Assembly: GCA_030710605.1 (NCBI GenBank)
Contig: CP092886.1
Coordinates: 165,136,573 to 165,200,572, forward strand
Direction: 5' to 3'
Length of the DNA: 64,000 bases
Source: Cordylochernes scorpioides
Taxonomy: Eukaryota > Arthropoda > Arachnida > Pseudoscorpiones > Chernetidae
In this document: piece after piece, positions 1,721 to 62,100 of the stretch
How the letters are laid out: each line of letters starts with the position of its first letter
Position numbering within the stretch: position 1 is the first letter of the stretch
The notes under the pieces: model-generated
The model's database searches: none
Seen by the model: the letters and a program-made list of their open reading frames with translations, nothing else
What the model was told of the DNA's origin: nothing
Translations under genes and position numbers: made by a program

Positions 1721-2104
1721 ACTAGATAAATATGAATATTCGAAATTATTTTAGACGCGTAAGATTCTTTTAAAAATTAAACAATTTCTACTGCCCTTAC
1801 TGCAATGGAAAAATTATTGGGAGGGCCTGGCTCATCAGTGGTGAACCCTCCCAGCGGTTTTGCCAGTTCAATCTACCATACCGCTGTTATATTGCATTTT
1901 TCGATCTTCCTTTTATAGTGATACTGTTGCTAGACTCTTGGAATGGGTATTTTAGATGAACTATGAACATAAGCTTTGAGAACAATAGAATTACATACAA
2001 TTATAAATATAAATTGTTTAATTTCAAAAAGAATCTTACGCGTCTAAAATAGTTTCGAATTTCCATAACAGATGCGCGTTAGTGCATCATAACTAGATAA
2101 ATAT
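1721..2104 (-). mobile_element. Foldback hammerhead-type element, subfamily 1, with 13-bp TSD
   Basis: A 358-bp insert (1734-2091) lies between two identical 13-bp direct repeats, actagataaatat (1721-1733 and 2092-2104). Inverted arms of about 50 bp, containing 'ttttagacgcgtaagattc' and its complement, flank a core that holds the permuted hammerhead-like motif on the minus strand. One end carries an extra tail ending near 'gtgcatcat' that the other lacks, so this is not a simple terminal-inverted-repeat transposon. Duplications of 11-13 bp recur in three other copies, which suggests reverse-transcription-coupled insertion. No protein is coded, so it must move with enzymes from elsewhere; Penelope-like elements are my guess. 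Confidence 0.75.
1819..1885 (-). ncRNA. Permuted hammerhead-like motif, copy a
   Basis: Read on the minus strand: AGCGGU + A, UGGU, CUGGC, then AAAA where GAAA is expected, CCGCU, GGGAGGG, CACCA, CUGAUGA, GCCAG, CCCUCCC. All pairing segments are intact, but the first core base of GAAA is mutated, which should abolish cleavage. Confidence 0.4.
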
Positions 2105-9859: not shown

Positions 9860-10200
9860 CACAAATATCATAGAAAACTATGGACATAAGCTTTAAGAAC
9901 AGTAGAATTACATATGAATATTGGCATCGAGCATTTCTCGATGCCAATATTCATATGTAATTCTACTGTTCTAAAATCGTATGTCCATAGTTTGCTTGAA
10001 TACCATTTCTGAGATTCCACCCTTCACTGTAGCATATATAAGTAGAATCGTCCAATACAGTATTAGAGCTCTAAGAAGCGGTCTGGTAGATTAAATTGGC
10101 GAAACAAATGGGAGGGTTCACAATATATAAGGCAAGCCCCAATATATTTTCATCGCAGTAAGGACAGTAGAAATTTATTTTGTTTATAAAAAAACATTCG
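9860..10200 (+). repeat. Degenerate foldback hammerhead-type element, subfamily 2
   Basis: Contains an inverted pair ('attggcatcgagcatttctc' against its complement) followed by the subfamily 2 body: 'gcatatataagtagaatcg', AGCGGUC, UGGUAG, UUGGC-GAAA. The strand corresponding to CUGAUGA has decayed to 'aatatataaggcaag'. No target duplication found. Confidence 0.6.
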
Positions 10201-10484: not shown

Positions 10485-10551
10485 GGGAGGGCCTGGCTCA
10501 TCAGTAGTGAACCCTCCCAGCGGTTTCGCCAGTTTAATCTACCATACCGCT
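10485..10551 (-). ncRNA. Permuted hammerhead-like motif, copy c
   Basis: Minus strand: AGCGGU + A, UGGU, CUGGC, GAAA, CCGCU, GGGAGGG, CACUA, CUGAUGA, GCCAG, CCCUCCC. The stem I partner is CACUA instead of CACCA, which keeps pairing with UGGU through one G-U wobble. All core bases are intact. Confidence 0.45.
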
Positions 10552-10607: not shown

Positions 10608-10674
10608 AATGGTATGGTAGATTAAACTGGCGAAACCGCTGGGAGAGTTCACCACTGATGAGCCAGGCCCTCCC
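10608..10674 (+). ncRNA. Permuted hammerhead-like motif, copy d (damaged)
   Basis: The CUGAUGA and GAAA strands with stems I and II are intact, but the AGCGGU segment is replaced by GAAUGGU at the palindrome centre, so stem III is shortened to about three or four pairs including a wobble. Confidence 0.35.
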
Positions 10675-12649: not shown

Positions 12650-12970
12650 TATATATATTTCTTGGTTTTTCAAGAAGCCACTGGGACCAAAAAATATTTT
12701 TTGGTCGCAGTGGTTCAGCCTACTCCACGCTGACGAGCGCCAAAAGCGCAAAACGCGTTCGTGGATGGCTTTTCTTGATTTATCAAGAAATTGAGTTGGC
12801 CAAATATCAGGGAACAGGCTAAATCAATGTTTAGCTGATTTCTGTTCCACCAGATGGCGCTCTGCCTTCTGTAAAGCACATATGCTCCTGGTCAGGATAT
12901 GCCATTTTTAATATTGATTTCAACACCTGATCTTTTTATCTTTTATTTTTTTCTTTCGATTTTATATATT
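12650..12970 (+). repeat. Penelope-associated hammerhead repeat, copy 4
   Basis: Direct repeat of the 12.29-12.61 kb copy. Its hammerhead region (12724-12765) has AAAA in place of GAAA and is expected to be inactive. Confidence 0.6.
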
Positions 12971-13059: not shown

Positions 13060-13320
13060 AAATGTAATTCTACTGCCCTTTAAGATTATGTCTATAGTTT
13101 TCTTGAAACCCATTTCTGATATTCCACCCTTCAGTGCTGCGTATATAATCAGAATCGTCCAATACAGTATTAGAGCTCTGAGAAGCGGTCTGGTGGATTA
13201 AATTGGCGAAACCGCTAGGAGGGTTCACCACTGATGAGCCAAGCCCTCCCAATATATTTGTTCATCGCAGTAAGGAGAGTAGAAGTTTGTATTGTATATA
13301 AAAGAAACATTCGTTTTTAC
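13060..13320 (+). repeat. Hammerhead-type element, subfamily 2, 5'-truncated
   Basis: Contains the subfamily 2 body from 'tgtaattctactgcccttta' through the core to 'gtaaggagagtagaagtttg'. No matching inverted arm or target duplication was found around it. Confidence 0.65.
13184..13250 (+). ncRNA. Permuted hammerhead-like motif, copy e (all segments intact)
   Basis: AGCGGU + C, UGGUG, UUGGC, GAAA, CCGCU, (G to A change in the G-run), CACCA, CUGAUGA, GCCAA, CCCUCCC. Stem III is six pairs, stem I five, stem II five. Relative to subfamily 1, stem II has changed C-G to U-A on both strands. Confidence 0.5.
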
Positions 13321-14861: not shown

Positions 14862-15115
14862 AATGACATTTTGATGAATATTCGAAACTATTATAGACGC
14901 GTATGATTCTTTTGATAATTAAACAATTTCTACTGCCCTTACTGCAATGGAAAAATTGAAGGGAGAGCCTGGCTCATCAGTGGTGAACACTCCCAGTGGT
15001 TTCCATTGCAGTAAGGGCAGTAGAAATTGTTTAATTTTCAAAAGAATCATACGCGTCTATAATAGTTTCAAATATTCATAACAGATGGCGCGCTGATGCA
15101 TCAAAATGACATTTT
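14862..15115 (-). mobile_element. Foldback hammerhead-type element, subfamily 1, internally deleted, 11-bp TSD
   Basis: A 232-bp insert between direct repeats aatgacatttt (14862-14872 and 15105-15115). Left arm 'ttatagacgcgtatgattct' and its complement on the right. The core stops after the GGGAGUG segment, so the substrate and GAAA strands are missing. The tail 'gatggcgcgctgatgcatca' is present at one end only, as in the other copies. Confidence 0.7.
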
Positions 15116-23100: not shown

Positions 23101-26100
23101 TTTTGATACATTTATCGACAACAAGATGTACAAGTTTTGCACATGAACCCCCTGTATGTGTCCTACATGTGAAACTCTTGCACCAGACTAATTAATGAGC
23201 AGGCTACGGCTACGACTACCGGACCAACATGGCGCCTCTCTACGAGAACTTAAATCTCCTGGCGCATCACATCACTGCCAAGTAAGTCTCCTGTATTTTA
23301 CATATGATTTCTTTTTGATACAATATATCCAATGTTAACGTAATGTTACCTATGCACCAAAAGAGACACTTCTCCCTTTAATTGTGCATCAGAATTGTGT
23401 ATCACCCTGGTAAAAACTTGACTTTTATTTGTACAATTATATTATGGTACAGTAAGGGCAGTAGAATTTGTTTTATTTTTAAACGAATCATACGCGTCTA
23501 TAATAGTTTCGAATTTTCATAAAAACTTTCCTATTGATAATGAAGAATGAGACCAGGTTTTTGGATAATTAGAAAAAATCCAATCTGTTTTCTTTATGAA
23601 AGTATATTTTATGATGTACTAACGCGCCATCTGTTATCAAAATTCGAAACTATTTTAAAGGCGTATATATATATAAGATTATTTTTTAAATTAAACAATT
23701 TCATTGCAGTAAGGGCAGTAGAAATTGTTTAATTTCAAAAGGAATCTTACGCCTTTAAAATAGTTTCGAATTTTGAAAGTATATTTTATATATAACTATT
23801 CAAAATAATTCCTATAGTTTTATATATTTTCTCTATTAAAAATTTAAACTATATATAGCTGGAGGATGAATATTTTTAAATAAGCAATTTTCAACTGAGC
23901 AATGATAAAATGAGCCCCCTCCCATTATTTTTATCATTGTAGTAAGAGAGATAGCAATAAAAAAGTCATTTTTTAAAATCCATGCGCGTTTCAAATACAG
24001 TAGTTTAAAATGTTAACAACAAATAGCAGACTAATACTTCATAGATATTATTATATTTAAAATTCGAAACTATTTAAAGGCGTAAGATTCTTTATCAAAT
24101 TAAACAATTTCTACTGCCCTTACTGCAATGGAAAAATTAATGGGAGGGCCTGGCTCATCAGTGGTGAACCCTCCCAGCGTCTATAATAATTTCGAATTTT
24201 CATAAAAACTTTCCTATTGAAGATGGTGATAACAGAGAGTGCATCATATTATTATATTTCTATATTAATATTATTATTTGAAGATACAAATCAAGGGCAG
24301 CACAAAATTGTATCGTTTTACTTTATAATATATTGAATTTTATAAATATTCTCGTTAATGGAAACCTATTATATAAAAAAACAGCCATTGTATGGCTTGC
24401 AAAGAAGAATGTTTGAAAAGTATAACAATAGAAATAATTCAATTATATCTGTGATGCATGCCAGCTGTTTGGGTTTGGCAAATTTCATTCTTAGTTTTAT
24501 CTCGAAACGCTTAACTTTTTCAAAACTCCCTCTAGCGTCTAAGAAAGCTAATTAAGTTTTAAAAAATAAAATTAACTTAATTAACATAAAAATAGAGTAC
24601 TATTAATCTATTTACATATTATATTAAAATAGATCATATATAAATTGTATTTTTGAATAAAAACCTTTCTTTTTCTATAATTTTAATATAGTGGAAATCA
24701 AACCTCTAGCGTCTAGGAAAGCAAATTAAGTTAAAAAAGAAGAAAATTAACTTAATTAACATAAATATAGAGTACTATTAATCGATTTATATATTCTATT
24801 AAAAGAGATCATGTTTAAAGTGTATTTTTGAATAAAAACCTTTCTTCAAAAAATCAAAGATTTGAAGCATCCTAAACTCTTCTATTCAACATAGAACGAG
24901 AGCTGCCTTTTCTTTCTCTATAATTATCAGTAACCATAAAATGCTCTGTATATATATTCTCTATGAATGTTAGGGTCAATATTTGTGTAAATATATTATT
25001 GATATATGATTATGATGCACTAGCGTGCCATCTGTTATGAAAATTAGAAACTATTTTAGACGCGTATGATTCTTTTTGAAATTAAACAATTTCTACTGCC
25101 CTTACTGTAATGAAATAAAGAAATTAAAAATGGGAAATATACTAAACTCTTTTATTCAAAATAGAGCGACAGCTGTCTTTTCTTTCTCTATAATTCAGTA
25201 TACCATAAAATGTTCTGTTTATATATTTTCTAAGAATGTTAGGGTCAATATTTGTGTAAATATATTATTTATATATGATTATAATATAAAACATTGAAAT
25301 GACGCATGTAATATAAAACTATAGCTCATCAATATATCATTAATAATATTAAAAACTCTTATTTTTTTATCTCAATATGGAAGAAATGAAAGATGGGAAG
25401 TAGCCTAAAGTCTTCTATTCAAAATAAAAAGGGAGCAGTATTTTCTTTCTTTATAATTCAGTTACCATTAAATGCTCTTTTTCTATGTTCTCTATTAATT
25501 TTAGGGACAATATTTGTGTAAATATATTATTTAAATATGATAATAATATTAAACATTGAAGTGACGCATGTAATATAAAACTATAGCTCATCAATATATC
25601 ATTAATAATATAAAAAATTCTATTTTTTATCTCAATATGAAAGAAATGAAAGATGGTAAGTAGCCTATAAAGTCTTCTATTCAACATAAAAAATATCAGT
25701 CTTTTCTTTTTAATTCAGTATACCATTAAATGCTCTTTTTGTAAGTTCTCTATAAATGTTAGGGTCAATATTTGTGTAAATATATTTTTTATATATGATT
25801 ATAATATAAAATATGGAGGGAATGTGGCGAGTATACACTATATCTCATTAATATATCATTAATAATATGAAATTTCTATTTTTTACTCAATATGGAAGAA
25901 ATGAAATATGGGAAGTACCCTAAGGTTTTCTATTCAACATAAAAAGAGAGCTGTATTTTCTTTCTTTATAATTCAGTATACCATTAAATGCTCTGCTTAT
26001 GTATTCTCTATTAATGTTAGGGTCAATATTTGTGTAAATATATTTCTATATATGATAACAATATAAAACATTGAAGTGACGTATATAATATAAACTATAG

Positions 26101-29100
26101 CTCATCAATATATCATCAATAATATTTTTTTAAAAACTTATTTTTTTATCTCAAATTGGAAGAAATGAAAGATGGGAAGTAGCCTAAAGTCTTCTATTCA
26201 ACATAAAAAGACAACAGTGTTTTCTTTCTTTATAATTCAGTATACCATTAAATGCTCTGCTTATGTATTCTCTATGAATTTTAGGATCAATATTTGTGTA
26301 AATATATTATTTATAAAGTAAATAAAGCTTCCAGGGTTAAGTTTCTTGTTCAAATTTTCATTTTCAAGCTTTCGGACTTGTTAGTCCTTCTACAGGAGTA
26401 TCACGATAATAAATTGATGATATATATACTATATTGTATATATAAAAATAGTATATATATCATAAATTTATTATCGTGATACTCCTGTAGAAGGACTGAC
26501 AAGTCCGAAAGCTTGAAAATAAAAATTTGAACAAGAAACTTAACCCTCTGGAAGCTTCATTTACTTTATAATATTATAAATCAGGGAAGAAGGTTTATAA
26601 ATATATTATTTATATATGATTATAATATAAAATATATTGAAGTGACGCGTATAATATGAAACTATAGCTCACACACATAAATTTATTTATAATTACTAAT
26701 AAAAACCTTTTATTTATATTTTAATATGGAGATGATAAAATATGGGAAGTATATACTAAAAGCTTCTATTCAACATAGAACGAGAGCTTCTTTTTTATTT
26801 CTCTTTAATTCAGCATACTATTAAATGCTCTGTTTGTATATTCTCTACAAATAGTAGGTTCAATATTTGGGTAAATATATATTATTGATATATGATAATA
26901 ATATTACATATATATTGATGTTTTTCACAAATGAATTTACTGGCAATATGTTTCTTTTACTTCTTCAAATAAAAGACACTTCGGCCAGTAAATCTTTTTA
27001 TTGTCTCGACGTTTCGACAAAATTATTTTGTCCTCGTCAGGTGTTTCTTTTAAATATCATGAACTATTATCTCTACAGACCTTACTGCAACTGAGTTATT
27101 GAATCAAAGATATGAGGTATCTCATTCAATGACTCATATCATTGCAGTAAGGTCTGTAGAGATAACATTTGATGATATTTAAAAGAAACACATAGCCAGT
27201 AAATTTAATTGTGTAAAATTTTAACGATAGATGGCAATTAAATTTATAAATATATTGATGCGTGACGCGTGTAATATAAAACTATAGCTAATACATTTAG
27301 CATTAATAATAAAAACCTCTTATTTTAATATATATGTTATGAATAAGAAGATTTCTGTTGATTTTTGATTATCTTGAGGATTATGCTATGTTAATGCAGT
27401 CGTGGTTAAAATCTTGAAACTATAATAATAAAAATAATGAAGATTAGAAATAGCTTTAATTGAGCTTATGGGATATATAAAAAACATAATTTGATAAAAG
27501 TACTGACTGTCTTTAGGCGAGTAGAACAAGGAAAACAAAATATTATTTACATAATTACATATGGTTTGAGCCGGCCATCGGGAAACAACAACAATGAGTT
27601 TTTATAGGGGAAGCGTGACCTCTGGCGGTCGAACCAACAGAGTAATTTTTTTCTATAAATTTTAATTCCAAAATTAAATAAAATTTTCTATAACATTTAA
27701 TATTATATATATTGAATAAATAAAAGATAAAGAGTAATACCTAAAGTTTTTTTATTCAAAATAAAAAAAGATAACTGTTTTTTTTTTCTTTCTGTATAAT
27801 TCACAGTATACCATTAATTTTGATAACAGATGGCGCGCTAGTACATCATATTATAAATGTTCTAATAAAAGAAACAATTTGATATTTGCGAAAGAGCTAT
27901 TGCTCGAAGCATATTATATATTTATAAATGTATGTAATTCTACTGTCCTAAAAGCTTATGTCCATAGTTCTTCTAAAATACCCATTCCAAGAGTCTATCA
28001 ACAGTATCACTATAAAAGGAAGTTTAAAAAATGCAATAGAGCCTTAAAATGCTTATCAGATAGCATGTAGAAGGCGGAATAATTGTTACTAAAAAATGCA
28101 ATATAACAGCGGTATGGTAGATTAAACTGGCGAAACCGCTGGGAGGGTTCACCACTGATGAGCCAGGCCCTCCCATTAATTTTTTCATTGCAGTAAGGGC
28201 AGTAGAAATTATTTAAAATTCAAAAAGAATCTTACGCCTTTAAAATAGTTTCGAATTTTGATTGATTACTCTGTTTGTATATTCTCTACAAATAGTAGAT
28301 TCAATATTTGTGTAAATACATTATTGATACACTGCGTGACATTGAAAATGGAACACCAAGAAATAGTGGCCAAAAAATTATGCAAATTTCAGGGTAGACG
28401 CGCCTAACCGAGTTATGCAAATGATGTAAAATGCGCAGCTCTCGTGTGCACATGGAGTAAGATATAAGGGAAGGAACTTGCAGAAAGGACAGTATTCGTG
28501 TCGTTATTTCTTCAAGGAATATTATTGTAGAAATTTTTTTCTTGTGTCAAAAGACAAGTGTAATAACAGAGACTGCCAGGTCATCGTAAACGGAGGCAGT
28601 TCAAGCAGACAGACGCTTTTACGAGGGGCATGGTGATCGGACTGAAAAGGGCAGGTTGGTCCATACGTCAAATCGCAGCTGATACACACCTTGGTGCGTC
28701 CACGGTGCACCGACTGTGGAGAAGATGGTTGGAACAAGGAAATGTGGCAATTTATAGGAAAGCCTGTGCAACCAGAGTGACGTCAGCACGTGTGGATCGG
28801 CGTATCCTTCGACAAGCAGTGGCGGCCCAACAAGCCACTTGTACCGCCATCCTGCAACATGTGCAAGACACCCTAGATCATTCCATCTCGACCAGAACCA
28901 TTTCCCGTCGATTGGTTGCTAATGGCTTGCACTCATGCCGTCTTCTAAGAAAACTGCCATTGACCCCACCGAATAGGCGCAACGTTTGGAATGGTGCCGG
29001 GCTAGATCGACGTGGATGACAAAATGGCACAGGGTCGTGTTCTCAGATGAGTCGCGTTTTTGCTTGTCCAGTGATAGTCGCCGTGTACGCGTGTGGCGTC

Positions 29101-35100: not shown

Positions 35101-38100
35101 TTTATACTGTATAAACGGTCTTCACGCTGTATGTCATACTTTCCATCACGAAACTTATCATATTTTTATGAGGTCTTAGTCAATTACAGTCAATGTCGGA
35201 GTACCATTTACCCTTTTCTATTATCCCTAGTACATGTGATGGAGACCAGGATAATTATGGAGGGTAGTCATATTTTCTTCTTGAAAAAAACACACATTTC
35301 CTTACTACACTACTGCAATGAAACAAATATAGGGAGGGTCTGGCTCATCTGTGATGAACCGCTAATTTCCTATAGAATTATTTATTTTTTGAAGAGAAAA
35401 ACATACGCGTAAATAATTTATAATTCTGTGTGTGAATATTGTATATTAATTAAAATTATATCCATGAACAAAACTTAAGGAAGTTGTACCATTTTATAAT
35501 ATATCGGGATTCAGGCAATAACTTCGAAAGATATTTGATACACAATGACCTTTATTGAAGACATGCTAGATAACTAAGTGTGAACAAAATTGCCTCTGCC
35601 TCCTTTAAAAAATAATAATAAACGACTGGCGACATCAAAGACTTACCACTTCCTTAAGATTTGTTCGTGAGTGGCATTTTAAAATATTATACAGTCTAAC
35701 TTGGATAATTCGAAATCGAAGGGACCAAAAAAATCGAATTATCCAAAAATTCGGATTAAAAACGGAAATTCTATTTCTAGGAAATTCTAGGGACCAAGAT
35801 AAATTTTCGAATTAAAGACCTTAGAATTATCCAAGTTCTACTGTATAAATGAATTTATTGTTTAAAATAAACATGCATGTAAACGTTGCCCATTTCTCTA
35901 AAGCAGGCCGTAAAATGGCCTCCTCAGCCGATAGGGATCTTAACATTGCATTCTTCACGCTGAAATATTTCAAATTGTAATTAATTCATAGAACAATTTA
36001 GGTTACATATTTTATTATCAGCTGAAACATATCTATCCAATTTATAATAACGTTGCCGAGTCAATTCTAACAAAGCACCGAGCTAATTACCACAAAAGGT
36101 TTTTTTCTCTCTATCCACTAAAAGGAATTTTTCCTAATGTTGCTCACAACACACCGCCCGCGCTCTTTTTAATTGGATATCATTTACTTAATGCATCAAT
36201 ACATTGTTAGTTTCTGGTCCTTAATTAGCAATTAGCATGTCGGCGAGCCGAGCGCCTAATGAGGGAGAATCCTAAGCGCATTGATCATTTCCTACATTGC
36301 TTACTTAGGAGATCTAAGGAAGCCGTCTTGGTTTTCGTTACTATGGACATCGAGATATTTTAGGAATATGTCTCGAGCCCGCAACTGATCTCTTGCGTCA
36401 GGAGAAAGGCCTATCGCATGGAATAATCATACAAGTAAAGAAAAGGATCCAAATTAGCACTTCCTCTCTGTCCATAACTATTATATTTATCAATAAACTA
36501 AAATAGCTGGTCTAGCTTGAATTATATATATTACCAATTTCAATAGAAGTATGATTATTTATTAGATATACACTCATGGACAAAACTTAAGGAAGTTGTA
36601 CCTTTTAGCATGTATATCGGGATTCAGACAATATCTCTGAAAGATATTTTATATACAGTGAGCTTTATTGAAGACACACGAGATAACCATAGTGTGAACA
36701 AAATTGGCCCTGTCTCCTTAAAAAAAAGACATGAGTGTAATTCTAGCAAACTTTCAGCAATAACGTTCCTGCCAAAATAAAGAAGTGGTGATAACAACGC
36801 TTCTCTCGAAATGTATTGCATAATTCACTCATTAGGAATTACTCTTTTTACTTCTTTGTATTGATCTGTATTCTTAATTGGTCTCAAAATGTAGGAAGGC
36901 ATTGTTCGATTTAGGAAATAATTGAAGGATACGTTTATAATGGTGAAGATGACAATATAGAAATGATTAAAGGTGACATCGAGCGTTTGGCCCAACCGTG
37001 AAGGCCTCCTGTTGGGCTCTCTGAACTGTCATCTACTCACAAAAAGGACCGCGAATCCATTAGATATTTTATCATAAAATAACATAGTAATGTTGATGTA
37101 ATATACCTTATAATAATATTATAAAATACTCTGTTTAATTAATTTATTTTTGATTGTTTGGATTTGGCATCACTGTAATTATTGTTGTTATTATGAATAA
37201 ATTAAAAAGTGTATGTTTGACATTAGAAAGATATATAATTAAAATATGTTTCTTAATTTGGTAAAGCATTTTTATTTATTTAATCGAAGGAACATTACAG
37301 TTGAAAAAAGGAATTGAAAATAGAAAAGAGTTTTGTCCATGAGTGTATTTGGGATTGCTTATGAGTAAACAGCTCTTACACAGGACCATTGTGAAAATAT
37401 TTAACCTACAAGACTAGTATATTATGGAAATCTGCAACAAATACCTCCAGTGTTTTTACATGGATTATTTGGATTCACATTGCTATCTTTGTGATAATAA
37501 CAAGGATCCTCAAATCTATATATAATGAATCGATATTAGAAAATATTTATTTTATATATGTAATTCAATCTAAGGTATTTTTAAAAAAAGAATGTTTTCA
37601 TATCATTTCCGACTTAACGACTGCATATCAATTCATATATTTTGGGTAAGAAGTATATTAATATTTTAAAATCAAGCTAATTAATATATTTTAGCATTTA
37701 TATTTAATAATATATTAATAATAATATTTTTTTTTCGGAAACTATTCGAATTCGTTTATTCTATAATGGCTTGCATAAAATGTTAATTTTTATTATTAAA
37801 CTATCAGAAGCATTCTTTTAAAAAGCATAACTGTTCTATAAATATAAAATATTATTTCGCTCACTCTTTTCAGAAATGAATAGAAGCGATTGCAAAATCT
37901 TAGTAGGGAAATATAGTTCTCAATTTTAAGATACAAAACAGAGCTCATTAAGCTTCTCAAGTTTACAAAGCAACATCAAGACATTCCTAAATTTCCTTAA
38001 GATCCATTGAAATATTCAACGCCAAAGAACCCTCAGTATTCAGAGCAGAACTTACTGCAGTGCACGAAGCATAACTAAATATCCATAAAGAAAATCCAAT

Positions 38101-41100
38101 CAAGGCTTGCATATAAATTGACTCTAAAGCAGCCATTTATGCTTTTAAAAACTGTTACAAAAGCCACGACGCCCTGCTTAAAAATATAGCAAAAGCTATG
38201 AATGACCTCAATCCTGAAAGTTCAATAACCTTCCAATGGATCCCATCACATGTGAGAGTACCTGGCAATGAAAGGGCTGACTCATTGGCTAAAGCAGGAG
38301 CATCTAAAGAAAATATCCCAAAAATATCCTCAACCCTTCCAACAGCAAATGATCACTCTAACAGACTGAAAATCAAATTTAATAAAGATTGGCAAAATAA
38401 AACATCAAACACCGCTGGTTCAATGGAAAAACTCCCCTCCTGAAAACCAACTCACAACTTAACAGATCAGACTTCACCATGCTTTCCCGTCTTAAAACAG
38501 GCCATCTACGTCCAATGATTTTCACAAGTGGATCCAAAACCGTTCCAAATTGCACCAAATGTCAGGATTCTGCAGCGAGCCTAGAACACATCATGCAATG
38601 CATCGGGCATTGCCGAACGGACATCTACACCGATCCAACTGTGGTCATCGAGGTGATAAAGAGGCATGGCCTTCAGGATCTGGTCTAGACTTGAAGTCCA
38701 GACTTGGGACAAGAAAAAAAAACTGAATGCAAAGCTGATAGCGTTAGTCTCCAACATTTCCTTATTGCATTCGAGCCACAAAAAATAAAAGAACCGTTGG
38801 GAATTCCAGCAAAACTCATTAAACTAACTTATGGAGTTGGACTAATTTTCCATATAGTCTTTTTATAGGAATAAGAAGCAACATTTTAATACTAGCTCAT
38901 TACTGAAAGGCCTATATATCTCGAAAGAAATGAAATATGGGCGGTCGAATTTACCTGAAACTGTTGTTATGAATATCAATGATATGAATCTGCACGATCT
39001 GGTCAGAAATGACCCAAACTAGGCATTGGATCGCTTTCTCATAGCGGGAGCTGTGCCAGTTGTACAATGGCTATAGGCCATTTATAAAAGGAAGAACTAA
39101 GAGACGATATGGCGGAACGCTACACCCAGCAGATTGAAGCATATTAGTGCATAGAGAGATTTCAAAATAGCCCCGGCGGCGGAAGACGGATATTTTAAAG
39201 AGAGCGTCTGCTGGCGCCCTGCCAGCCCTACCGGCGCTCGCGTAAATGGCCAATTACTCCTTCAGTGCCCCACCTGTGGTCTGTGACGGACATTCTTCTA
39301 TCCACTCAACAGCACACAGTAACAATTCCAGGCACCAATTTTTCTTTTTCAAATAAAACAAACGTTTTACTCTCTTATTACGATGAAAGACTATTGAATG
39401 GGCTTGGCTCATCAGTATGGAACCCTCCCAGCGGTTTCGCCAAATTAACCCACCAGACCGCTTTCAGACCTCAAATACTGTATTGGACAATTATGCATAT
39501 ATATGCGACACTGAAGAGTGGAAGCAAACTATGGATATATAAGCTTATAGAACAGTAGAAATACATATAAATATTTGCATCGAGCAATGCTCTTACAAGG
39601 ACAGTTACGCAAAAATTAATTATAAAGCAATATATATTTATATGGATAAAATATAATATTTAACCACACACCATTAAATTAGACTCATGAACAAAACTTA
39701 AGGAAGTTGTATACCTTTTAGTATGTATATCGGGATTCAGACAATAACTCTGAAATATATTTGATACACAGTGACCTTTATTGAAGACACACGAGATAAC
39801 TAAGTGTGAACAAAATGCCTGTTTTTCCTTTTAAAAAAATAGGCGATCGGCGACATCAAAGACCTTCCACTTCCTTAAGTTTTGTCCATGAGTGTATGTC
39901 CATAGTCAGCTTAATTACCACAACCAAGATTCTCTATTCAGTGTTCGATATATAAACCCAATGTATTATTAGAGAGGTCTGGTAGATGAAACAGGCGAAA
40001 CCACTTGGAGGGCTCATCACTGAGCTTACCATGGTGTAAAATACCGCTGAGGTGAATGGAACGCCAACCGCCTTGATGTCATCAGACCGACTCTCGGCAA
40101 ACTTGGTGCTTCAAAGCAAAGCAGAGATTTATTCACAGCTCACAAATCACCATCACGACAAATTATAAGAATTAGCATTGCAAATATTATAAATTGAAAA
40201 GTACCCTTATGGACAAAACTTAATAAAGTGGAAAGTTGTCTTTGATAACGCCGGTCGTCTGTTTTTTTTTTTTTTTAAGGAGACGGAGGCAATTTTGTTC
40301 ATACTTTGGTATCTCGTTTGTCTTTAATATAGGTCGCTGTATATTAAATATTTTTCAGAGTTATTGTCTGAATCCCGATATACATGCTAAAAGGTACAAC
40401 TTCCTTAAGTTTGTCAATGAGTATTTGCAGTAATAAGTACTTTTGTAAAACGCCACTTGAAGTTACACCGCATGAGTTTCTTTTAAATGAAAACTCAAAA
40501 TTTATTTCAAGGTGAAATATCGACTATTTCTAACCTTTTTGGATGAGGTATGAAAGGGTGAATTATGAAGAGTAATGATGAACGGAAAAATAAAAGTGTC
40601 CAGGGATGGGAATCGAACCCACAATGATCCACTTACCGGGCAGATGCCATGTCCACTAGGCTACCCTGGTCGTATTTTTTCGTTCGTAAATAATACATAA
40701 AGTAACTTATAATACAATATAATGCACTGCGGCAAAATACATCCAGGGTAGCCTAGTGGACATGGCATCTGCCCGGTAAGCGGATCATTGTGGGTTTGAT
40801 TCCCATCCCTGGACACTTTTATTTTTCCGTTCATCATTACTCTTCATAATTTACCCTTTCATACCTCATCCAAAAAGGTTAGAAATAGTTTATATTTCAC
40901 CTTGAAATAAATTTTGATTTTTCGTTTAAAAGAAACTCATGCGGTGTAACTTCAAGTGTCGTTTTACAATCACAGGCCGCAGTGCATTATATTGTATAAT
41001 AAGTACTTTTATTATTTATATAAAAGCAACGGGTCTATTGAAATGAAGAGCTTAGGTTCTCAAGTTTGCCTTTTTTATTGCACATAATTAAAATGATAAA

Positions 41101-44100
41101 GATTTCACGATCAGATTTTTTTAAAATTAGAAATGCCATATTTCTAGTGAGAATCGTTCTCGGGATGAATAAACTAAAACATTAACCATATTTATACCTA
41201 GGACTAGTCTAACTCCACCAGCGAGTGCAAGTAACCAAACGGGACTCTGGCACATTTGTAAGTGCAAAAGTCTGATTTTTACATGTGTAGACATTTGGTG
41301 AACTTACAGTAAATAGCAGTCGTCAACTTCTACCCACCATGATTATCATGGCCTGTACCACGTGTACTAGGGATAATAAAAATAATAATAACTAGGAATG
41401 TTTCACAAGTGTTTTTTACATAAACCTGTTGGAGATGGATTTTGGTTTGAAAACTAGCATTTCTAATAAAACGAAACTCATTGTGTGAAATCTTTATTAT
41501 TTTAATTACGTTTCACACAATTTAATTGTAAATCATTGTAAATGATTGCTCAAACATACCGATAATTATACGACAATATTCAGAACGGTAACTCATTATT
41601 ATCTGTAAGAAGTTCTAGGTATTGGATGTTGTCGAAATATTCTATAATCCGAAACTATTTTAATACGAAATATTTTCCATGTCCCGGAATCATCTCTTTA
41701 AGAAAGTAACCGGAGCTCCACTAGAAAACTTCTCTCCAACTCTATTTAAAATATTTGATGTTGTAATATTTTTAAAATATGATAAATAAAAAAAGTCCTA
41801 AAATATCGTTTAAATGTTCGTTTAAAACTTTTAAGATCAATATTCCAGTATTTATTCGATATTTTAATTTCGTTATCACAAAAACACAACCAAAAGAATA
41901 TATTTTAATGACCTAATTGGTGGTGGTGTCTTGTTCTTTCCTTGGAAAGGGGGGTGCCATTGCCCCGTTAGTCAGCCACATTTCAGATGGCCTGTAGGCC
42001 TTCACGATTACCGTTGCGGCTCAGGGCTCACGACACTGTACTTCGCCCTACAGGGCAGTCCCTTACTTGTGCTGCTTCTTCCGCCCGCCACGTAGAGGAG
42101 GACTTCGGGGCAGGAACGACCTAATTAAAAACATGTTGAGGGAGTTATTAGACATTTAAGTTTTTTTTATTATTTAAAACGAATGCACATGTGAGATTGT
42201 AGAGAAGTGAGGAAATATACAAGTGAACAATATTGCAATTTCCAACACGATTGATTATTGAAAGGGCTGTGTCGCGTGAAATTTCGCCATCTCAGTCTCA
42301 AGAGCGCTTCAACTATTGCACTGACTTGTCCTGCTTATCAACAAGATACGTTCTTCCGTATCAGAAGAACATGTTGGTGCCAGAGTAAGATTTTGTTCAT
42401 AAGGAGGATCCACCTCCTGTTTTATAAGGCAGAACTTTTATATTGTTGCAAGTAGCTAATATACCCGGCTTCGCCCAAATTTTACTTGAGTGAAAGTTTG
42501 CCTAACAAATATTGTTTGAACTATGATATATGTTTTATATACATATATATAAGGCGTCTCTCCCGTCAAAATAGACGCTAAAACTAAGCGCCATCTATTG
42601 ACCGTCTCAGAAAACTAGCGGACTCAATTCGGTAAGAAAGTCACGACACCAGTTTTGGAAAACTGAGAAGCGTTCACCTAGAGACCTTGGTTCGGGTTAA
42701 TGTACTCGTCAGTATAGGGTGGGCTTTATTCCATGAGATCCACATAAGGGATCAAATGAAATCTTCACAATCTCAAAAAGAGGTGTTTAGCTGGTAGAGT
42801 GGCTAGGTCAAATCTATGGCCAAAATATAGATGAAAACTTTGACGGGAGGAGATTAAGCTCTAAAAATGAAGGTCGCCTCTCCCATCAAAATATAAACGT
42901 TAAAGCTAATTATACTAATTAGCTAACCTATTAGCCCGAAACTACGGTCTCTAGGTCGGTGTTTCTCAGTTTGCCAAAGCTGGTGTCGTGGCTTTCTCAC
43001 CGACCTAAGTCCGCTAGTTTACGGAGTGTTCTGCTGGAGTGAATTTTTTGCCGAGATATCTTGTTTCAACCCATCAAACATAGTGCGACAATATTATTAT
43101 AATTTTCTGACTAAAAATGAGTTAACTAGTCTAATAATTGGTTAATTTGAATTTTAATTGGTTAAAAATGTGACAAAAATACCTTCCAGACTTAATTATA
43201 TATCCTGTTAAAATTTCATCCAGATTAGTTAAATATTTAGGAAACAAATGTGGGACAAACAGACATGTAATCTTTATACAATAAATATAAATTAAAGATT
43301 GATTCTCTCAAGGTATTCATAGTATTCTATTAAGGTCAAGGAAATGGTAAAAAAAACCGAAGCTATCAGTAAAATATATAAAATAGGCCGCAAAAACCAG
43401 GAAAGTAATATTGTTTCTCTGTAAACTCTAGCGCTTGGAGCGCCGCTTGTTGGGTGATCAGTGTTGCTATTTCTCTTTTATAAATAACTGAATCGTAACT
43501 CCAACCTACACACAAGGACAAAATCTTAGAAATGGTATTCAACCAAACGATGGACATAAGCTTTTAGGACAGTAGAATTACATTCAAAAGATTCCACCCT
43601 TCAGTGCAGCATATAAAAGCAGAATGATCCAATACCGTATTGGAGCTCTAAAGAAGCGGTCTGGTAGATTAAATTGGCGAAACCGCTGGGAGGGATCACC
43701 ACTGATGAGCCCATCCCTCCCAATATTTTTTCATCGCAGTAAGGACAGTAGAAGTTTGATTTATTTGTGAAAAGAAATAATCACGTCTTAATGTATTCAT
43801 TAGTTATATATAGATGGCGCGTTATTGCTTTGTATTAATTGTAGAGTCTATTTTAGCGGTTTAACAAGTTACCTTGTATATCAATATCTCTCTTCTTCTT
43901 CTTCTTTCTTATCTCCACTCAATCATATTAGGGTATCAAATTGTTTCCCTTGATGTGGTGTCTGTTTGACAACCATCATGACTGGGCGAAGTAGAATGCG
44001 TCTGCCTTTGTTATTAAGACTGGGAGCATTACTCAGTGGCAGGCCGACTTAGCTCCAAAAGAAATGGCCGCCTCTGACATGAGGAACAGACGCCATGTGC

Positions 44101-53100: not shown

Positions 53101-56100
53101 ACCAGGATCACATCCACTAATTGATTTCTTTTCAATTCCAGCGTTTCTAAGTTTCTTATGGCTTCATTACAAACATCCATGAATTCATGGAGACACTTAG
53201 CCGATGGATTCTTAATTGCCCGGAGAGAAAAGATTTTTGACACCTGGGCATAAGCTAGCTCTCTCGGGTTATCAAATCTTGATAACAGTGTACTCCATGC
53301 TTGGCCATAATTTTCACTTAGTAAAGGGAAACCCCTTATTAATCTGGTCGCTTCGCCTTTTACTGCAGAATTCAAATATTGTAACTTCTGTATATTAGTT
53401 AACCCTGGATGTGCATCGATGGTGGTGAGGAATAGCTCTTTGAAGTTGATCCAAGTGCCCATATCTCCATCATATATCGGCAAGTCAAATTGAGGCAATT
53501 TTATATTTGCCTGAGAGCCATTTGGCTTTATGTCCGCCAGTTTGTTTTTGAGTTTTCTTTTATTTTCTATTTTTACCCTCAAGCTTCCAATCTTGTTCAT
53601 TGAACTATCATATGCCTCACTTTCTTTATCTATATCAACCTCATCCAAAGAAAACAGCTCATCGTAGAGTTTCTCAATTTTTTCTTTGATCTCCTTTAAT
53701 TCTTCACCCATTATTTCTAAGCGTACTGTTTCACCTGCCTCAATAATTGAATCCACAGTTTCAATAAATCCATCAATTCGCCTTATCTGGCAACTTAACT
53801 TTCTTTGGAGGATCCTCTCGTCTCGAGACATTTCGCAATTGTATTCTCGCTGAGTTTTTGCCTAAATTTCTTCTGTTTCAAATCCTAATCAGGCTCGAGG
53901 GACCATGAATCGAATTGGCTTTGGCCTCCTGGCACTAAGGAGGAATCACCGCCTATATTCTTATTTTAACGCTGGTTTTAATTCTACGCTCCTTAACTCA
54001 GCGAGCTAATTATAACTCCTTCAAACTTGACTGACTGCTATTGTCTTGTCTCACCAACTCTAATGACTCAACCACGTATACTTTAATAACTAACTTTATT
54101 TTCTAAAATCAAGTGTATATACATTTCTAAAATTTACATAATTTAACAATAATTAACAAAAGTAAATTCTAACAATTTTGCATATTTAAGGCTGGAACAA
54201 TATCAATCCTAAAAATTAGAGAAGAAATGAAGAACAGGAGTACCATACAAACCAGATATCCTCTAAACACCTGTACCAAAACCATTTCTTTAAGCCACCT
54301 CAATAGCGAATAACATCAACGATTGAATTTAAAAGGATTTACTTTAACCTTTCTTTATAATTTACTTCGAAGTTTAGGAGAGCCACTGCCACCTTTTTTA
54401 AAGAAAACTTTTGTTAATTCTTAAATACACTTGGGACCAAATTTCAATTATTTAAAGTTTTCCTTGATAAGGATGACAGTGGGTCACCAAAACGTCGAAA
54501 TATTTATTTTTTAAAATTGAAATAAATCATTTTAAACTCAATTATAAAGCCAACCTGGAAATGGTGTTTTTCATCAACGATTGGGTTAGATGAAGTGCTA
54601 CTGAGCAGTAAAAAGGAGGAATATTTGTGTTTATATTCAAAAAGATGGCTCGCTAGGAAAGGCAGGTTAGATAACTTCTTCTATATGCAGATACTAATAC
54701 ACTCTTGCCTTGATTTCCAAGTCGAATGGGAAACCCTGCAAAGTGTTAGTAGTGCAGCACTGTTAGAGGTTTTAAATCATCTACAGGATAAGTCACTGTG
54801 TATCAAATATATTTCAGAGTTATTGTTTGAATCCCGATATAAATGGTAAAAGGTACAACTTCCTTAAGTTTTGCCCATGAATGTAAATCTAATAAATTAT
54901 GAAAGTCTACTAGAACGAAAATAGAAGCATTTCTCTTGGATTTCTGATTTCTAACATCAATTTTAATTTGTTAGAAATGCATGGGTTAACTAACAGTTCT
55001 TGGAGAGAGTCCTGTGAGACTATAACAAGAACTAATATAATGTTTATTATTGATTTTTTACCCTATTAACTTCGCTTAACTATCATCGTGGCAGTAATCT
55101 TGTTAACGCCTTGCAAATAGATTTTTACCTGCATGCAAAATTGTTCTGCGGAGAATTTATGTCTTCATCATCTGAGATGCAAGTATGGTTGCTGCAAGGT
55201 GCCTTTTCAGTTTAGGGCAAAGGTTATAATCTATGGTGAGTATGGAGTTCAAGTGAGTATGAAAAATTCTGAACAATTTGAGAAGCCCATAATTATGAGC
55301 GTTTTCCATATCATCAAGTTTGAATACACGAATGCAACCTCGGAATCTGATAGCATTTTTTCCCAGGATTCCATTAATATATTTTTTAAACATCCTTTAC
55401 ATGTTTTGGGTAGGTTAATTATAATGTATATACAGGGTGTATATCAAGTAAATTGTAAATAAATTTGGCACTCTATAAGATAAATACTACTGTAGATTTT
55501 CAAAAAATTGCATTCTTTCATTCCATAGCTATATTTATGTAAAATGTAACAACACATCTGTGCGCAGTGTAGTGATGAACATTTATCCAAAATTCAAAAT
55601 TCGAGCATCCATTGTCGTTGCTCCGCATGCCTGGAGGAGCCCCAAAGAGATAGTGGATTTTCTTAAGTTGCACAAAATCACTGTGTATCATGTCAAGAAG
55701 CAGTTTGATGAGGCCGTCAGTGACAAAGAGGAAATGGCTGCAAGGAAAAAGTATTCGCAACGATTGGACAGGGTAATAGGCGAATAATTTGTCAAAAATG
55801 CCAAGGAGAATATTTATGGAAGCCCTGGGAAGATCATGAGGGCCATAGCCAAGGAAATGGATGTTGGCCCAATGATAATTGTCAGAACTATCCATGAAAA
55901 TTTTGGTCTCAAGTCCTATGCCCTTCGAAAAGGGATCAGTAACTGTAATCCTGATATTTGGCCCTCTAACTCTCTATATTGCAACTCCCTCGACTACTAC
56001 GTATGGGGCGTTGTTGAGAGAGATGTCAACAAAGTTCCCCACAACACCATTCAGTCTGTCAAGAAAGAGGTTCACCCGGTGATGATCCAAATGAATAAGG

Positions 56101-59100
56101 TCATCGTCGCCAAGGCCTCTGCTTCATTCCGCACTCGCCTCGAGACTATTGTAACTAATAATGGAAACTACATTGAATAAATCAAAACTATATCCTTCAT
56201 CCACTACTGTGCCAAATTTCATAATATTTTTTTCAATTCACTTGCAACAAATTTCAGTTAAAATATTCCTTTGTGGTTATTCCCAATTTACTCGGTACAC
56301 TCTGTATATAAAAATAAACGTTAAAAGATAATTTTCAAACAAAATCTACATATTCAAATAGGAATTGCCAATAAGAGAGTAGTATTACTTATATATAAAA
56401 ATATACAGTTTTAATTTTATTCAATGTGTGTGTGTCTTCCTTATTCTGAGCTAAGAAAGACTCGTGGCCAGTACGGAAGAAAACACGGTGTTTTTCTTTG
56501 CAGCCACCCCTTCCTTGTGGCTATCAGCCTGATAGAACTGCCCCCATTTACGATAAACAGTTTATATCATGGTTGGAAGTGGGGAAAGAAAGCCCTATAT
56601 AAATAATTAATAACATAAAAAGAAACAGTGGACATGGCATCTGCCCGGTAAGCGGAACACAGTGGGTTCGATTCCCATCCCTGGACACTTTTATTTTTCC
56701 GTTTGTCATTACTCTTCACAATTCATCCTATCATACTTCATCCTTAAAGTTAGAAATAATCGCTATTTCTCTTTAAAATAAATTTCGATTTTTGTTTAAA
56801 AGAAACATTCGCGGTATAATTGCAAATTTCGTTTTACAATCATCAGCCGCGTTATATTGTATTTTAAGAAACAAATTATTCGATAGATTAATTGGGATTT
56901 GATTTTTAAATATCTTAATTTTACTTTGACATTTTTTTCTCTCTTTGGTATTTAAGATTTGGGAACCAACCAACCCAGGACTCAACGTGATGACACTTTC
57001 ACAAAGCTAGAATATTGTATAAATATAATGGTATTTTATGGATATGATGTGTTGGTCATTCAAAATTATATTGATAATTTTAAGCAGTTTCTGAACATGT
57101 GTGGTTTGTCGTCTAGCTCCTCATTACAACGATCAGAATTTGTGGCAACCATTTTTAAACAATTGCGCATGAAAGATTGTTATCCCAACATTGCTACCTC
57201 CCTAGGTTGATGGTCACAGCTCTGTTTGCACGTTCTTCATCCAGAAAACTTATTCCACTTACTTCTCGTCAAAGGCTCCTAAAAGCAAAATATCATCTTT
57301 CGTAAAATCCATCCCCACACACTATTGAAGAATTAATAAAGACATGTGCTAGGTTTCGAGCCAAAATTTCTATTATTTTTATATCTGGAGCTCTTTAAAC
57401 TTAATCATATCTTATAGTTAAGGAATTGCAAAAAGTCGAATATTTAAATTGACCGTTTTGCGCTCTATTATTAAACTATAGAAGTTTTAATGTGAAATTG
57501 ACATTTAAAGACAATATACATTTAATATCCAAGGCTCAATAAAGAGTATAGACTTGGCGAAATAGCGCATCTTTTTCAGTTCCAGATTATAGCGGAGCTC
57601 AATGCGAGGCCGGAGTCTCGCATGGAACAAGCTAAGAAAAGAGCTGAGAAGGATTCTGGGATGGATGAGAGTCGATGCCTTGAAGAGCTTCGAAAGTTTA
57701 AGCAAGCAGAGGTACGAGGTTCATAAGACATTTATTTTTCTCTTAAATATATATACAATGGAATGTTATTTGCTCAGGTGAATCTTTATAACAAGTTGAT
57801 GTCACTGAATAAAGAATATGAAAACTTGCTGAGAGAGGCGTCACTGGCATTTCTCGGTATCCAGTACCAGAACATGAGCTTTATGCGCCGTCAGGTATGT
57901 AGAAGTCATGGAATGTCTGGAATTCTCTTTGTGTTCTTTTATTTAAGTAAAATACTAATTACTAACAATCAATTATGATTTGTAAGATGCGTTATACCTA
58001 AAATGGGACTTTTTTATTTCTAATCATACGGAGGAGCAATAAACACAGAGATTTTTGAATATTTTCGTCTGATTTTTATCCTAGTATAAAACTTCTCTAT
58101 TCGGATATTTTAAAGTGCTATTTCTTTAAAATTCTAGCATTATTCACACACTAGATCGCCGTATGATAATAATTTTCGCATATAAGTATTTCAACAGGCG
58201 TGGATCACACAATAAGCCATTTTATAATACTAAAGACTTTCAAAAAGTATTATTAATAATCTATGATGGTGGTTGTAGTATTCTAAAGTACCAATGGTAT
58301 AGCTTGCGATTTTCTTGGCAGGTAGGGGATGGTGATTGCGTCATTCTAGGTAACAGATAGAATTTGTACTTACAAGATATCCGATAGCTTTATTTTATTA
58401 CTTTCACTGACTAGCGTGGTTGGAATTTTGCAAAAGTCGGACATATTGACATCCTTCATCAAATTAAAAACAGATCAATGCGAGTTTTGATCCCAGGTTT
58501 TGGTTTTGGAAAACCGATAGCTTATAATACTACGCCACACATCTCCACTATAACGGGCTCTTTATAAAAACTGTCGTTTTCACAGTATCCACACAGGTCA
58601 AACGGTGAAGTTGTTGCTGAGTATGTACAAACATCGTTTTTATCAGGTTCACTTGACCTGATACAAGGCGATTGAAAAAAAACCGCATTTCCTACAACAA
58701 CAAAATTTTAAGACCGAAAATGATTTCATTTGTGGCATATTGTTGTCTTTGTGTTCTTATTTCATTTTAATGGTAGGTAGTTAGCGACTGCTACTGCTAC
58801 CAGGCTACATATGAAGGAGTTCGACTTTGAACCTTCAAGGTGCCTAGTCACTGGTGAGGTTGGAATTTTGAAAAATCGGGGATCAATGAAGAAATATAAA
58901 AATATTTCTCAAAATAAAGTCTCAATGAAAGGGAGGGCATTCAGCACTCTCTCTATTACAGGTTTCATATAAAAATAGTGGATATATACACATGTGTATA
59001 GGCAAAACAATGGAATTGTCTTACATAGAAAATTGTTACAAAGCAATAACGCGCCATCTATACATATAAAATAAAAGGATTTAAAGCGCGAATGTTTCTT

Positions 59101-62100
59101 TTATACATAATACGAACTTCTACTGTCCTTACTGCGATGAAAAAATATATTGGGAGGGCTTGGCTCATCAGTGGTGAACCCTCCCAGCGGTTTCGCCAAT
59201 TTTAATCCGCCAGACCGCTTCTCAGAGCTCTAATATTGTATTGGATCATTCTGCTTTTATATGCTACGCTGAAGAGCATTGCTCGATGCAAATATTAGAA
59301 TATAATGCTACTGTCCTATAAGCTTATGTCCATAGTTTACTTGAAAACCATTTCTAAGATTCCATCCTTCAGTGTAGCATATAAAAGCAGAATGATCCAA
59401 TACAATATTAGAGCTCTGAGAAGCGGTCTGGTGGATTAAATTGGCGAAACCGCTGGGAGGGTTCACCACTGATGAGCCAAGCCCTCCCAATATATTTTTT
59501 CATCGCAGTAAGGACAGTAGAAGTTCGTATTATGTATTAAAGAAACATTCGCGCTTTAAATCCTTTTATTTTATAGAAAATTGTCTTTAAACATTTTGTG
59601 TGTGAGTAAAATAATGATCTTTTTGTAGTGATATAATATACAATGGAATATGTTTGTGTGCGGACGAGTTACAAACCGTTAATTTTTGATAGTCACAACT
59701 CGGGATCGAATCCCGCATTGGTCACTTTTTCTGAAAAGAAAATTGCTCCAATGGCCCCAGATTCTTTCGGAAGTCAACTTCGCCAGTGAGTGCAAGTAAA
59801 CAAACTGGGTTCTGGCACACTTGTAAATGCAAAAGTCGAAATGTTTATATTTGTGGTGCACTTACAGTTATATATAAGCAGTTGCTAACTATTACCCACC
59901 ATGATTACCATGACCTGTACCGCGTGTACTAGCGACAATAATGAAAATTCACAAAAGAATATTCTGTAAAACTTAAATCGTTCAAATTTTGGGGTAAAAT
60001 ATATATCGCGAAATAAAAAGCATTGAATACTAACACGATATTAACACTATATCGAACTACATAAATTTTAAGAGAAAAATTAACCTGCCGACAATTTTTA
60101 GAACCCTCCCTAATCAACCCAAAACAATCTGTGCCATCCTATACGACAGGTTTTGTGCAGTGGAAAAACCTGATGGAGGTCTTCACCCAGCATGAGTCGG
60201 AGGGAGCCTCGGGCATCTCTGTGGAAAATCAGACGTCAGTCAAAACAACGGGACCTGCAGCCGGCTGCATGTATGTACAGCACATTCAATTTTACATCAC
60301 CTAGAATAGATGCTTATGAAAGAAATATATATATGTCATACCACAAGCACTAGCAGTCATTGGGGCTAAAGTGGTTCCAAGCGTCTTTCTTTATACCCGC
60401 TTTAAGTTCTGTACTGGAGTACTAGATTTATATATCCACTTTTCTATTTTTCTACTGCATATACTTCTTTAATACTCTCAAATCTACATTGATAGAATGT
60501 ATATAGTCTCGTGTCGTACTGAAATAGTAAATAAATCATAATTATATAGCATATATTTCCTCATTTTTGTAAAGTTTTTATTTTTATTCACTACATATGC
60601 GCAAGCGATTATACATTGCCCCCTCTCTTGCCACACTCTCACACACACACACAAATATATATTTAAAATAAAAAAGATGTAAAATAATTCTTATCTTAAT
60701 TATCATATAATTTATTTCTTCTTTCCAATGTCTTCTTCTCTCGACTTCCCTCTAACTTTTTGCTCTACCGTTCTTGTCTGTCTTCTTCAATTAATTTCTT
60801 ATCTTTTATTTAATCCTAACATTTCATTTTCTTATCTCTATCATATCATTAGGCATTTAAATCTTTACATCTCTATATGACCCTTTATAACACTTTCCTA
60901 TCTATATTTATCTATATTTCTGAATTTAATATCTCTCTATTTTTAAATTGACATATATATGTCTATTTCTTTTAGAAGACAGAAGTAATTTTGTACACAC
61001 TTAGTTATCTTTAGTGTCTTCAATAAAGGTCACTGTGTATCAAATATATTTCAGAATTATTGTGTGAATCCCGATATATATGCTAAAAGGTAAACTTCCT
61101 TAAGTTTTTTTATGAGTTTGGTTAAAGCATTTTTAAATAGAGAGATGCCTCTTCCAGTACATATTAGTATTAAGACTCATAGTATTAAGTTAGTATTAAT
61201 ACTCATAGAGTGTGTCTATATGAAATTAAAAACGTAGAAAATGAAATGATTAATGCGCGAATGTTTCTTTCAGACATAAATCAAACTTCTGCTGTCCGTA
61301 CTGATATGAAATAATATAAAACGTGTTTTTAAATAGTAGAAAATTACATAATGAAAATATAAAGATCTGTTACACGAAACATATTTAGTACTTTATTTCA
61401 TGTCTTAAATGTATTGTGAGAGATATGTGTCAACTCCCCGCCATTACTGCGTGAAGGAAAGAGACGAAGAGGGCATCGGAGAGCGCCGACGAGGCCTCCA
61501 GCCGCGACCATCCCTCGGGCGCGGTGCCCAAGCAGCGCATTCCCCGCTGGCTGCCCACGGACTCCGACAGCGGCCGATCTAGTCCAGCCACCAAGTCCCT
61601 CGCACTCAGAACCGACCCAAATTCTGGTAATGTGACGTTGATGTTTCTTTAGTGGGAAAACGACAACATATTTCGTTAACAGATTTTTTCCGATCATCGG
61701 ATTCTGGAGTGCCTCCTAAGGAGTCTTCTTCCAAACCGGCCGATGAGGACCAGAATGCCGACATAAAAGTAAGCCGCCAAATGTACTAATATCAAGGCTC
61801 TTACGATATAAATTCCAGAGAAAGAGTATTAAAATAAAATTTTAAATAATTTGGAGTAGATTGCTTTGTCCTCTTCCCTTGTTTAGTTTTTATTATGGTT
61901 GAAGCACGCTCTGGAAAGGCGGAAGACATCTCCAAGGTCAACGAACCTGCAAGACCGCAACCTGGTGCAACAATATGCTAATTTTGTTTCTTTAAATAAG
62001 TCGATAATTTTGCAAATTATTATGTTAACAATTTATTTCTCCCCACAGCTACTGTATATATATATATCCTACAGCCTTTTCACTAATCATTTATATTGTT

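Follow-up and report, generated by a model that had tools for sequence, protein, structure and literature searches.

A type-SGC hammerhead amplified in a probable retrozyme-like retroelement of the pseudoscorpion Cordylochernes scorpioides

The three conserved blocks of the hammerhead ribozymes of types I, II and III, namely the substrate strand (S), the CUGANGA strand (C) and the GAAA strand (G), follow one another in the circular order S-C-G. A different order, S-G-C, was described by Eckert, Friedrich, C. E. Weinberg and Z. Weinberg (NAR 2023, PMC10085705), who named it type SGC. In their description a linker leads from stem I to stem II and an additional helix lies between the other two sides, with 0-44 nt separating stem III from this fourth helix, a join of 0 nt being called structurally unresolved. 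For the type-SGC examples reported there, in vitro cleavage at the predicted site proceeds at rates of 0.007-0.19 per minute, and compensatory mutants proved four stems, the fourth helix included, in one example. Hammerheads are also found in mobile elements of animals. Metazoan non-LTR retrozymes are described as low-GC units of 150-450 bp, arranged as dimers to multimers, flanked by target-site duplications of more than 4 bp and expressed as small circular RNA (Cervera and de la Pena 2020, PMC7229834).

Here we report on a repeat found in a window of 64,000 nucleotides (the whole stretch of DNA that was analysed) of the nuclear genome of C. scorpioides. An earlier note on this DNA had proposed that the repeat carries a complete hammerhead core in a non-circular and undescribed strand order. 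The repeat consensus reads, 5' to 3', AGCGGU-H-UGGUR, linker GAUUAAA, YUGGC-GAAA-CCGCU, GGGAGGG-UU, CACCA-CUGAUGA-GCCAR, one base, and CCCUCCC. The blocks therefore stand in the order S (substrate), G (GAAA), C (CUGAUGA) and not in the circular order of types I, II and III. To look for hammerheads in an unbiased order, we scanned 288 kb of the genome for the three blocks in any arrangement. All 21 matches (19 when the overlap of loci L006 and L007 is removed) had the S-G-C order and every one came from this repeat family, whereas three Markov controls of the same 288 kb yielded 1 match, in an order other than S-G-C. Likewise, the window has 12 occurrences of CTGATGAGCCA with at most one mismatch, where 0.68 would be expected. 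The complete core and its non-circular order were thus borne out, but the order itself is not new, because it had already been named type SGC (PMC10085705).

The copy at 59422..59488 (+), which was identified by sequence and by the any-order scan, has the consensus of what we call the C lineage. Its S block (59422..59433, +) consists of AGCGGU-C (the 5' strand of stem III, U16.1 and H17) followed by UGGUG (the 5' strand of stem I); its G block (59441..59454, +) of UUGGC (stem II), GAAA and CCGCU (stem III); and its C block (59464..59480, +) of CACCA (stem I), CUGAUGA and GCCAA (stem II), all three read from the sequence. Folding and alignment add a fourth helix, with its 5' strand GGGAGGG at 59455..59461 (+) and its 3' strand CCCUCCC at 59482..59488 (+), which surrounds the C block and bridges stems I and II at their far ends. 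By analogy with the type-SGC examples of PMC10085705, cleavage is predicted between 59428 and 59429. The core elements CUGANGA, GAAA, A15.1-U16.1 and UH are all present in the sequences of the C lineage and of two others, A and D, with decay in single copies. In the C lineage, stems I, II and III have 5, 5 and 6 pairs. The stem I of the earlier note (UGGUG/CACCA) holds with its five pairs in this lineage but is reduced to four in the A lineage, where the fifth position is A.C; the D lineage has one internal mismatch in stem I (A.A at pair 4) and a GAGAGGG/CCCUCUC version of the fourth helix. Pseudoknot-free RNA folding of two sequences, both of which behaved alike, gave two adjacent hairpins (z about -2.5), one being stem III (S with G) and the other the fourth helix round the C block, with stems I and II crossing between the hairpins.

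The repeat resembles type SGC, as represented by the HRIMA-1 motif and its variants in PMC10085705, in block order, core letters, stems I-III and predicted cleavage site, and also in the fourth helix joining stems I and II and in the short or absent spacer from stem III to the fourth helix, which is 0 nt in the repeat. The linker between stems I and II is 6-7 nt long in the repeat and typically 3 nt in the published examples. Cleavage of type SGC has been shown in vitro (PMC10085705), whereas that of the repeat is predicted from its sequence; and the type-SGC examples described there are environmental sequences outside any genome of a known organism, whereas the repeat lies in the nuclear DNA of an animal, apparently as a retroelement. 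On its parts and their order, the ribozyme of the repeat is a real, intact and massively amplified type-SGC hammerhead, that is, a known permutation in a new kind of home, an animal retroelement. Our search of the literature by title and abstract found no animal retroelement with a type-SGC hammerhead, and the two other papers that we found citing PMC10085705 deal with structure-alignment tools. The earlier note had offered two modes of action. One, a pseudoknotted hammerhead that benefits from the proximity of stems I and II, corresponds to the model published for the S-G-C order (PMC10085705); the other, action between two RNAs, is not required. The fourth helix, the unit, the arrays and the retroelement nature of the repeat had escaped that note.

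Nine copies in the window had been named previously, and five of these pass the any-order scan. Besides 59422..59488, they are the ribozyme of its inverted partner (59152..59219, -), A-lineage and C-lineage copies with intact cores at 10485..10551 (-) and 13184..13250 (+), and the A-lineage consensus copy at 28108..28174 (+). The two partners belong to an inverted-pair insertion at 59030..59575, which holds two unit copies with arms (59065-59202 and 59438-59575) that are 99% complementary. The other four are damaged. AAAA replaces GAAA in the A-lineage copy at 1819..1885 (-); the 5' junction of the A-lineage copy at 10608..10674 (+) lies within the S block, the start of which is absent; stem I is broken in the C-lineage copy at 39396..39462 (-, corrected from 39399-39472), where CCATA replaces CACCA; and a C-like copy at 43655..43721 (+) has a fourth helix extended as GGGAGGGAU/AUCCCUCCC, a mismatch in stem II and A.C closing stem I. 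The window also contains a degraded copy (10077..10143, +), a partial copy (39973..40039, +), two 5'-truncated copies made up of the C block and fourth helix (14961..15003, -, and 24142..24179, -) and one copy that is both 5'-truncated and degraded (35332..35360, -). Among the loci collected, several copies (L001, L005, L046, L047, L051, L054) represent a variant with S-block-like and C-block sequence that lacks the G block, a possible non-cleaving relative that spread.

The genome comprises 2.62 Gb in 24 contigs and holds 79,020 occurrences of CACCACTGATGAGCCA, a 16-mer from the C block (reversed control, 0). The exact consensus ribozyme was counted 10,069 times for the C lineage, 5,863 times for A and 5,622 times for D, with 0 for the reversed controls; a D word carrying the linker TTTAAT has only 3 occurrences. 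Seventeen stretches of 10 kb picked irrespective of the repeat (L026-L042) contained 18 copies or fragments, which extrapolates to roughly 280,000 copies per genome, an estimate from a small sample (17 x 10 kb). Most of these unselected copies are degraded, and only two copies, both of L038, pass the any-order scan. Rfam assigned no hammerhead family to the SGC copies of the window at either threshold and gave no match up to E 1 for loci L124 and L125; one microRNA match (mir-653), below threshold, overlaps with a truncated copy. As for relatives elsewhere, the 16-mer matches 14 viral contigs, and in 0 of the 14 is there a GAAA among the 40 preceding bases; a gapped G-C pattern matches two contigs, a matching S block being absent from both as judged by eye; and one exact 37-mer has 0 matches in GTDB genomes.

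The ribozyme is the most conserved part of the unit. Over 67 positions, the consensus ribozymes of C and A show 4 differences, while outside the ribozyme an alignment of one C unit with one A unit has 196 identical positions out of 320. Ribozyme identity in that single alignment is 59/67, below the consensus figure because the aligner misplaced S-block letters and one copy has a private change. Another conserved stretch of the unit reaches 90% in one 30-column bin. Across 147 copies, 89 span the full ribozyme without length change, and the S block is kept in 74 of these 89. The invariance of the C block is by construction, since L001-L008 and most of L043-L122 were chosen for an exact C block.

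We then assessed covariation in an alignment of all 51 distinct ungapped copies, which are related to each other. Pairing holds in 87.5% of the cells of the four stems against 85.8 in shuffled alignments, with 0 of 500 shuffles as high, and structures slid by 1-3 columns pair in 34.9-53.2% of cells. A first alignment of 41 of the 51 copies had given 91.2%, a figure that favours pairing because 10 degraded copies were left out. The covariation score (0.141) and the number of doubly changed cells (30) were each equalled in 0 of 500 shuffles; the 7 pairs with a double change were matched in 93 of 500 shuffles (slid structures, 5-10) and the 22 pair types in 181 of 500. Most double changes represent one event, U-A to C-G in stem II (28 vs 22 copies, 1 unpaired, n=51). 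Stem I has no double change among the 51 copies, and its last pair is non-standard in 37 of them. Between lineages, pair 2 of stem I and pair 2 of the fourth helix have both changed from G-C in C to A-U in D, which brings the compensations at lineage level to three, one each in stems I, II and IV; the lineages also differ by two unpaired positions in stem I.

The unit is 367-373 bp long (A and C, 371-373 bp; D, 367-368 bp), has a GC content of 0.345-0.391 in 3 units and is non-coding, with no ORF of 100 aa in 59030-59575. It occurs as single copies, as frequent inverted pairs and as head-to-tail arrays of up to about 16 units per insertion, with periods of 372 bp and of 367-368 bp. For example, at about C1:7156.3-7162.1 kb one insertion carries 10 exact minus-strand ribozymes, spaced at multiples of 372 bp, followed by 4 on the plus strand, or about 16 units when two gaps at equal spacing are counted. 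The same 15 nt, TATGTTCGTTTATAT, stand at both of its ends (read by eye from the sequence of the two ends). Similarly, locus L125 contains three minus units and one plus unit flanked by copies of TATGATATTTTTA. End repeats of at least 10 nt, with lengths of 11-19 nt, flank 18 of 90 merged elements, and the other 72 have none of that length; in the shuffled-ends control 0.9% reach 10 nt. Some overlap between loci persists in this end-repeat and array set (L004/L122; L118-L120 with earlier ones). Units within an array are 98.1-100% identical (19 pairs), against a mean of 82.6% and a maximum of 98.7% between arrays (134 pairs). High identity within arrays, the arrays themselves and the end repeats are what would be expected from the copying of one circular or multimeric RNA. 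A circular fold of three units showed self-pairing that was not unusual (z about -0.8). Two words of the unit, AGGACAGTAGAA and TTCTACTGTCCT, are complementary and lie 83-94 and 250-261 bases after the cleavage site in the L024 unit and 82-93 and 261-272 in the L023 unit, with AGGACAGTGGAA and TTCTGCTGTCCT as their counterparts in the A unit; they may form a long-range helix.

If RNA were cut at the predicted site and then reverse transcribed, truncated copies should start at +1. We therefore surveyed the 5' junctions of the 147 copies, omitting overlapping and viral loci. A junction was readable in 105; of the 42 others, 36 are full, 1 lies at an edge and 5 are unmapped. Five junctions lie upstream of -110, 47 at -110..-3 (0.44 per nt), 12 at -2..+2 (2.4 per nt), 11 at +3..+9, 8 at +10..+19, 17 at +20..+30 and 5 at +31..+41, in a sample that favours junctions near the C block, since an intact C block was the criterion by which most loci had been selected. 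Among the 59 copies with at least 85% identity, 8 junctions fall at -2..+2. The commonest single junction is +26 (7 copies of mixed kinds), followed by +1 (5) and +22 (4, one repeated junction of one subfamily). The five copies starting exactly at +1 are L053, L093, L096, L067 and L102, although the start of L093 could be a microhomology fold-back. In the D lineage, the second unit of L135 begins exactly at +1, and five truncated copies (L029, the first unit of L135, L136, L137 and L138) begin near +6, after stem I, a start favoured by sampling because four of the five were picked by likeness to L029. This preference for the predicted site or its near downstream side is suggestive, and would fit either cleavage or a reverse transcriptase stopping at the folded ribozyme.

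How does this element compare with known hammerhead carriers? The repeat shares with the metazoan retrozymes, as described in PMC7229834, a non-coding, low-GC tandem unit within the 150-450 bp range, dimers to long multimers, target-site duplications of more than 4 bp (here 11-19 nt, in 18/90), a huge copy number and the co-occurrence in the genome of a repeat family with a type-I hammerhead. However, those retrozymes themselves carry type-I hammerheads (PMC7229834) whereas the repeat carries type SGC, and unlike them it frequently forms inverted pairs. We call it retrozyme-like, and not a retrozyme as defined, because it has no type-I hammerhead. Penelope-like elements with small type-I hammerheads (PMC11167929) are similar in their tandem organisation, but differ in block order and in having a coding region; no reverse transcriptase or GIY-YIG region was found in the unit of about 372 bp, nor an ORF of 100 aa in 59030-59575.

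A second family in the window does carry a type-I hammerhead, CCACG-CUGACGA-GCGC..GCGC-GAAA-CGCG-UU-CGUGG, in four copies with some variation (11189-11254, -; 11972-12037, -; 12396-12461, +; 12714-12779, +), which Rfam matches to HH9 below the gathering score. Stem III is palindromic (ACGCGU) in most copies, which we take to mark the dimer type. Adjoining this family is an open stretch at 11474-11719 (+) that looks GIY-YIG-like and presumably resembles the GIY-YIG end of a Penelope-like element; Pfam gave no GIY-YIG match for this piece. The type-I family and the SGC repeat have the tail AGATGGCGC in common, and GATGGCGC lies downstream in both at a similar distance. Of 10 SGC C blocks, 3 have it 113 or 115 nt from the first base of CACTGATGA and the other 7 have none within 500 nt; in the type-I family, 4 of 4 copies have it 127 nt from the first base of CACGCTGACGA or CACGCAGACGA. 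Allowing one mismatch, we counted 10 occurrences of AGATGGCGCTCT in the window (0.16 expected). By analogy with SINEs and LINEs, the common tail suggests a common enzyme for the two families.

The window contains other repeats and ribozyme-like sequences. A Twister-P1-like ribozyme with CCGGUCCCAAGCCCGG lies at 44219-44273 (-; 41.9 bits against a gathering score of 67.2) and a weaker match at 6008-6067 (-). BEL/Pao elements are known from animals, and one such frame, with two in-frame stops and Pao peptidase and DUF1759 domains, occupies 49653-53831 (-). A Tc1/mariner-type transposase is spread over two overlapping frames at 28630-29603 (+). Matches to tRNA-Thr(GGT) at 13803, 40596 and 40742, of which two lie head to head at a distance of about 70 bases, are possibly SINE-derived.

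What the motif, its three amplified lineages, the arrays, the partial end repeats, the conservation peak at the ribozyme and the compensatory pairs most probably reflect is a retrozyme-like, non-autonomous retroelement, in which the type-SGC ribozyme would cut multimeric RNA to units that are then circularised and reverse transcribed. We infer cleavage in this species, circularisation and the mobilising enzyme. Transcripts spanning at least two units would be cleaved after AGCGGUH within each unit, and the resulting unit-length RNA, with a 5'-OH and a 2',3'-cyclic phosphate, would be closed into a circle by a host ligase. The circle would be copied more than once round by a reverse transcriptase, probably that of Penelope-like elements in the same genome, and such over-round copying together with fold-back could give rise to head-to-tail and head-to-head inserts with target-site duplications.

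Could the blocks instead act in the ordinary circular order, with S and C of one unit or RNA joined by G of another, like the dimeric hammerheads of Penelope-like elements and newts? The arrays would place several S-G-C units on one transcript, so the canonical order can be drawn across units, and action as a dimer has been published for axolotl retrozymes (PMC7229834). Nonetheless, we think this unlikely: S and G together lie within 33 nt in one hairpin and C in the next, an arrangement far more local than a partner some 300 nt away, type-SGC RNAs cut in vitro at the predicted site (PMC10085705), and a fourth helix round the C block is expected for SGC. It is also conceivable that the retroelement structure is right but that the former hammerhead is now without catalysis, its two hairpins being kept for reverse transcriptase binding or packaging. 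The variant without a G block exists in several copies and the two hairpins fold well alone (z about -2.5), as such a role would allow, but the core letters and the complementarity of stem II, which two hairpins do not need, have been kept in three lineage consensuses, and there are compensatory pairs in stems II and I; we therefore hold this to be very improbable.

The many insertions that are inverted pairs with long arms, such as 59030..59575, also recall a DNA transposon of the MITE kind, bounded by long terminal inverted repeats. We give this reading next to no credence and rejected it on the end repeats, the lengths of which vary from 11 to 19 nt, and on the arrays; moreover, the element exists in single, inverted and head-to-tail forms, and its 5' ends vary in position.

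To conclude, type-SGC hammerheads previously came from environmental sequences, and their biology was hardly open to study because the owners of those sequences were unknown. With 21,554 exact consensus copies from three lineages in one host genome, type SGC becomes testable in a real animal. If our reading is true, a hammerhead permuted into a pseudoknot is able to sustain a very successful element, and the retrozyme cycle extends beyond type-I and type-III ribozymes. The chances seem to us evenly balanced that a class of animal retrozymes is the genomic home of non-circularly permuted hammerheads, in which circular RNA would be excised by a type-SGC ribozyme and Penelope-like machinery borrowed through a common tail; some environmental type-SGC RNAs may then derive from such elements.
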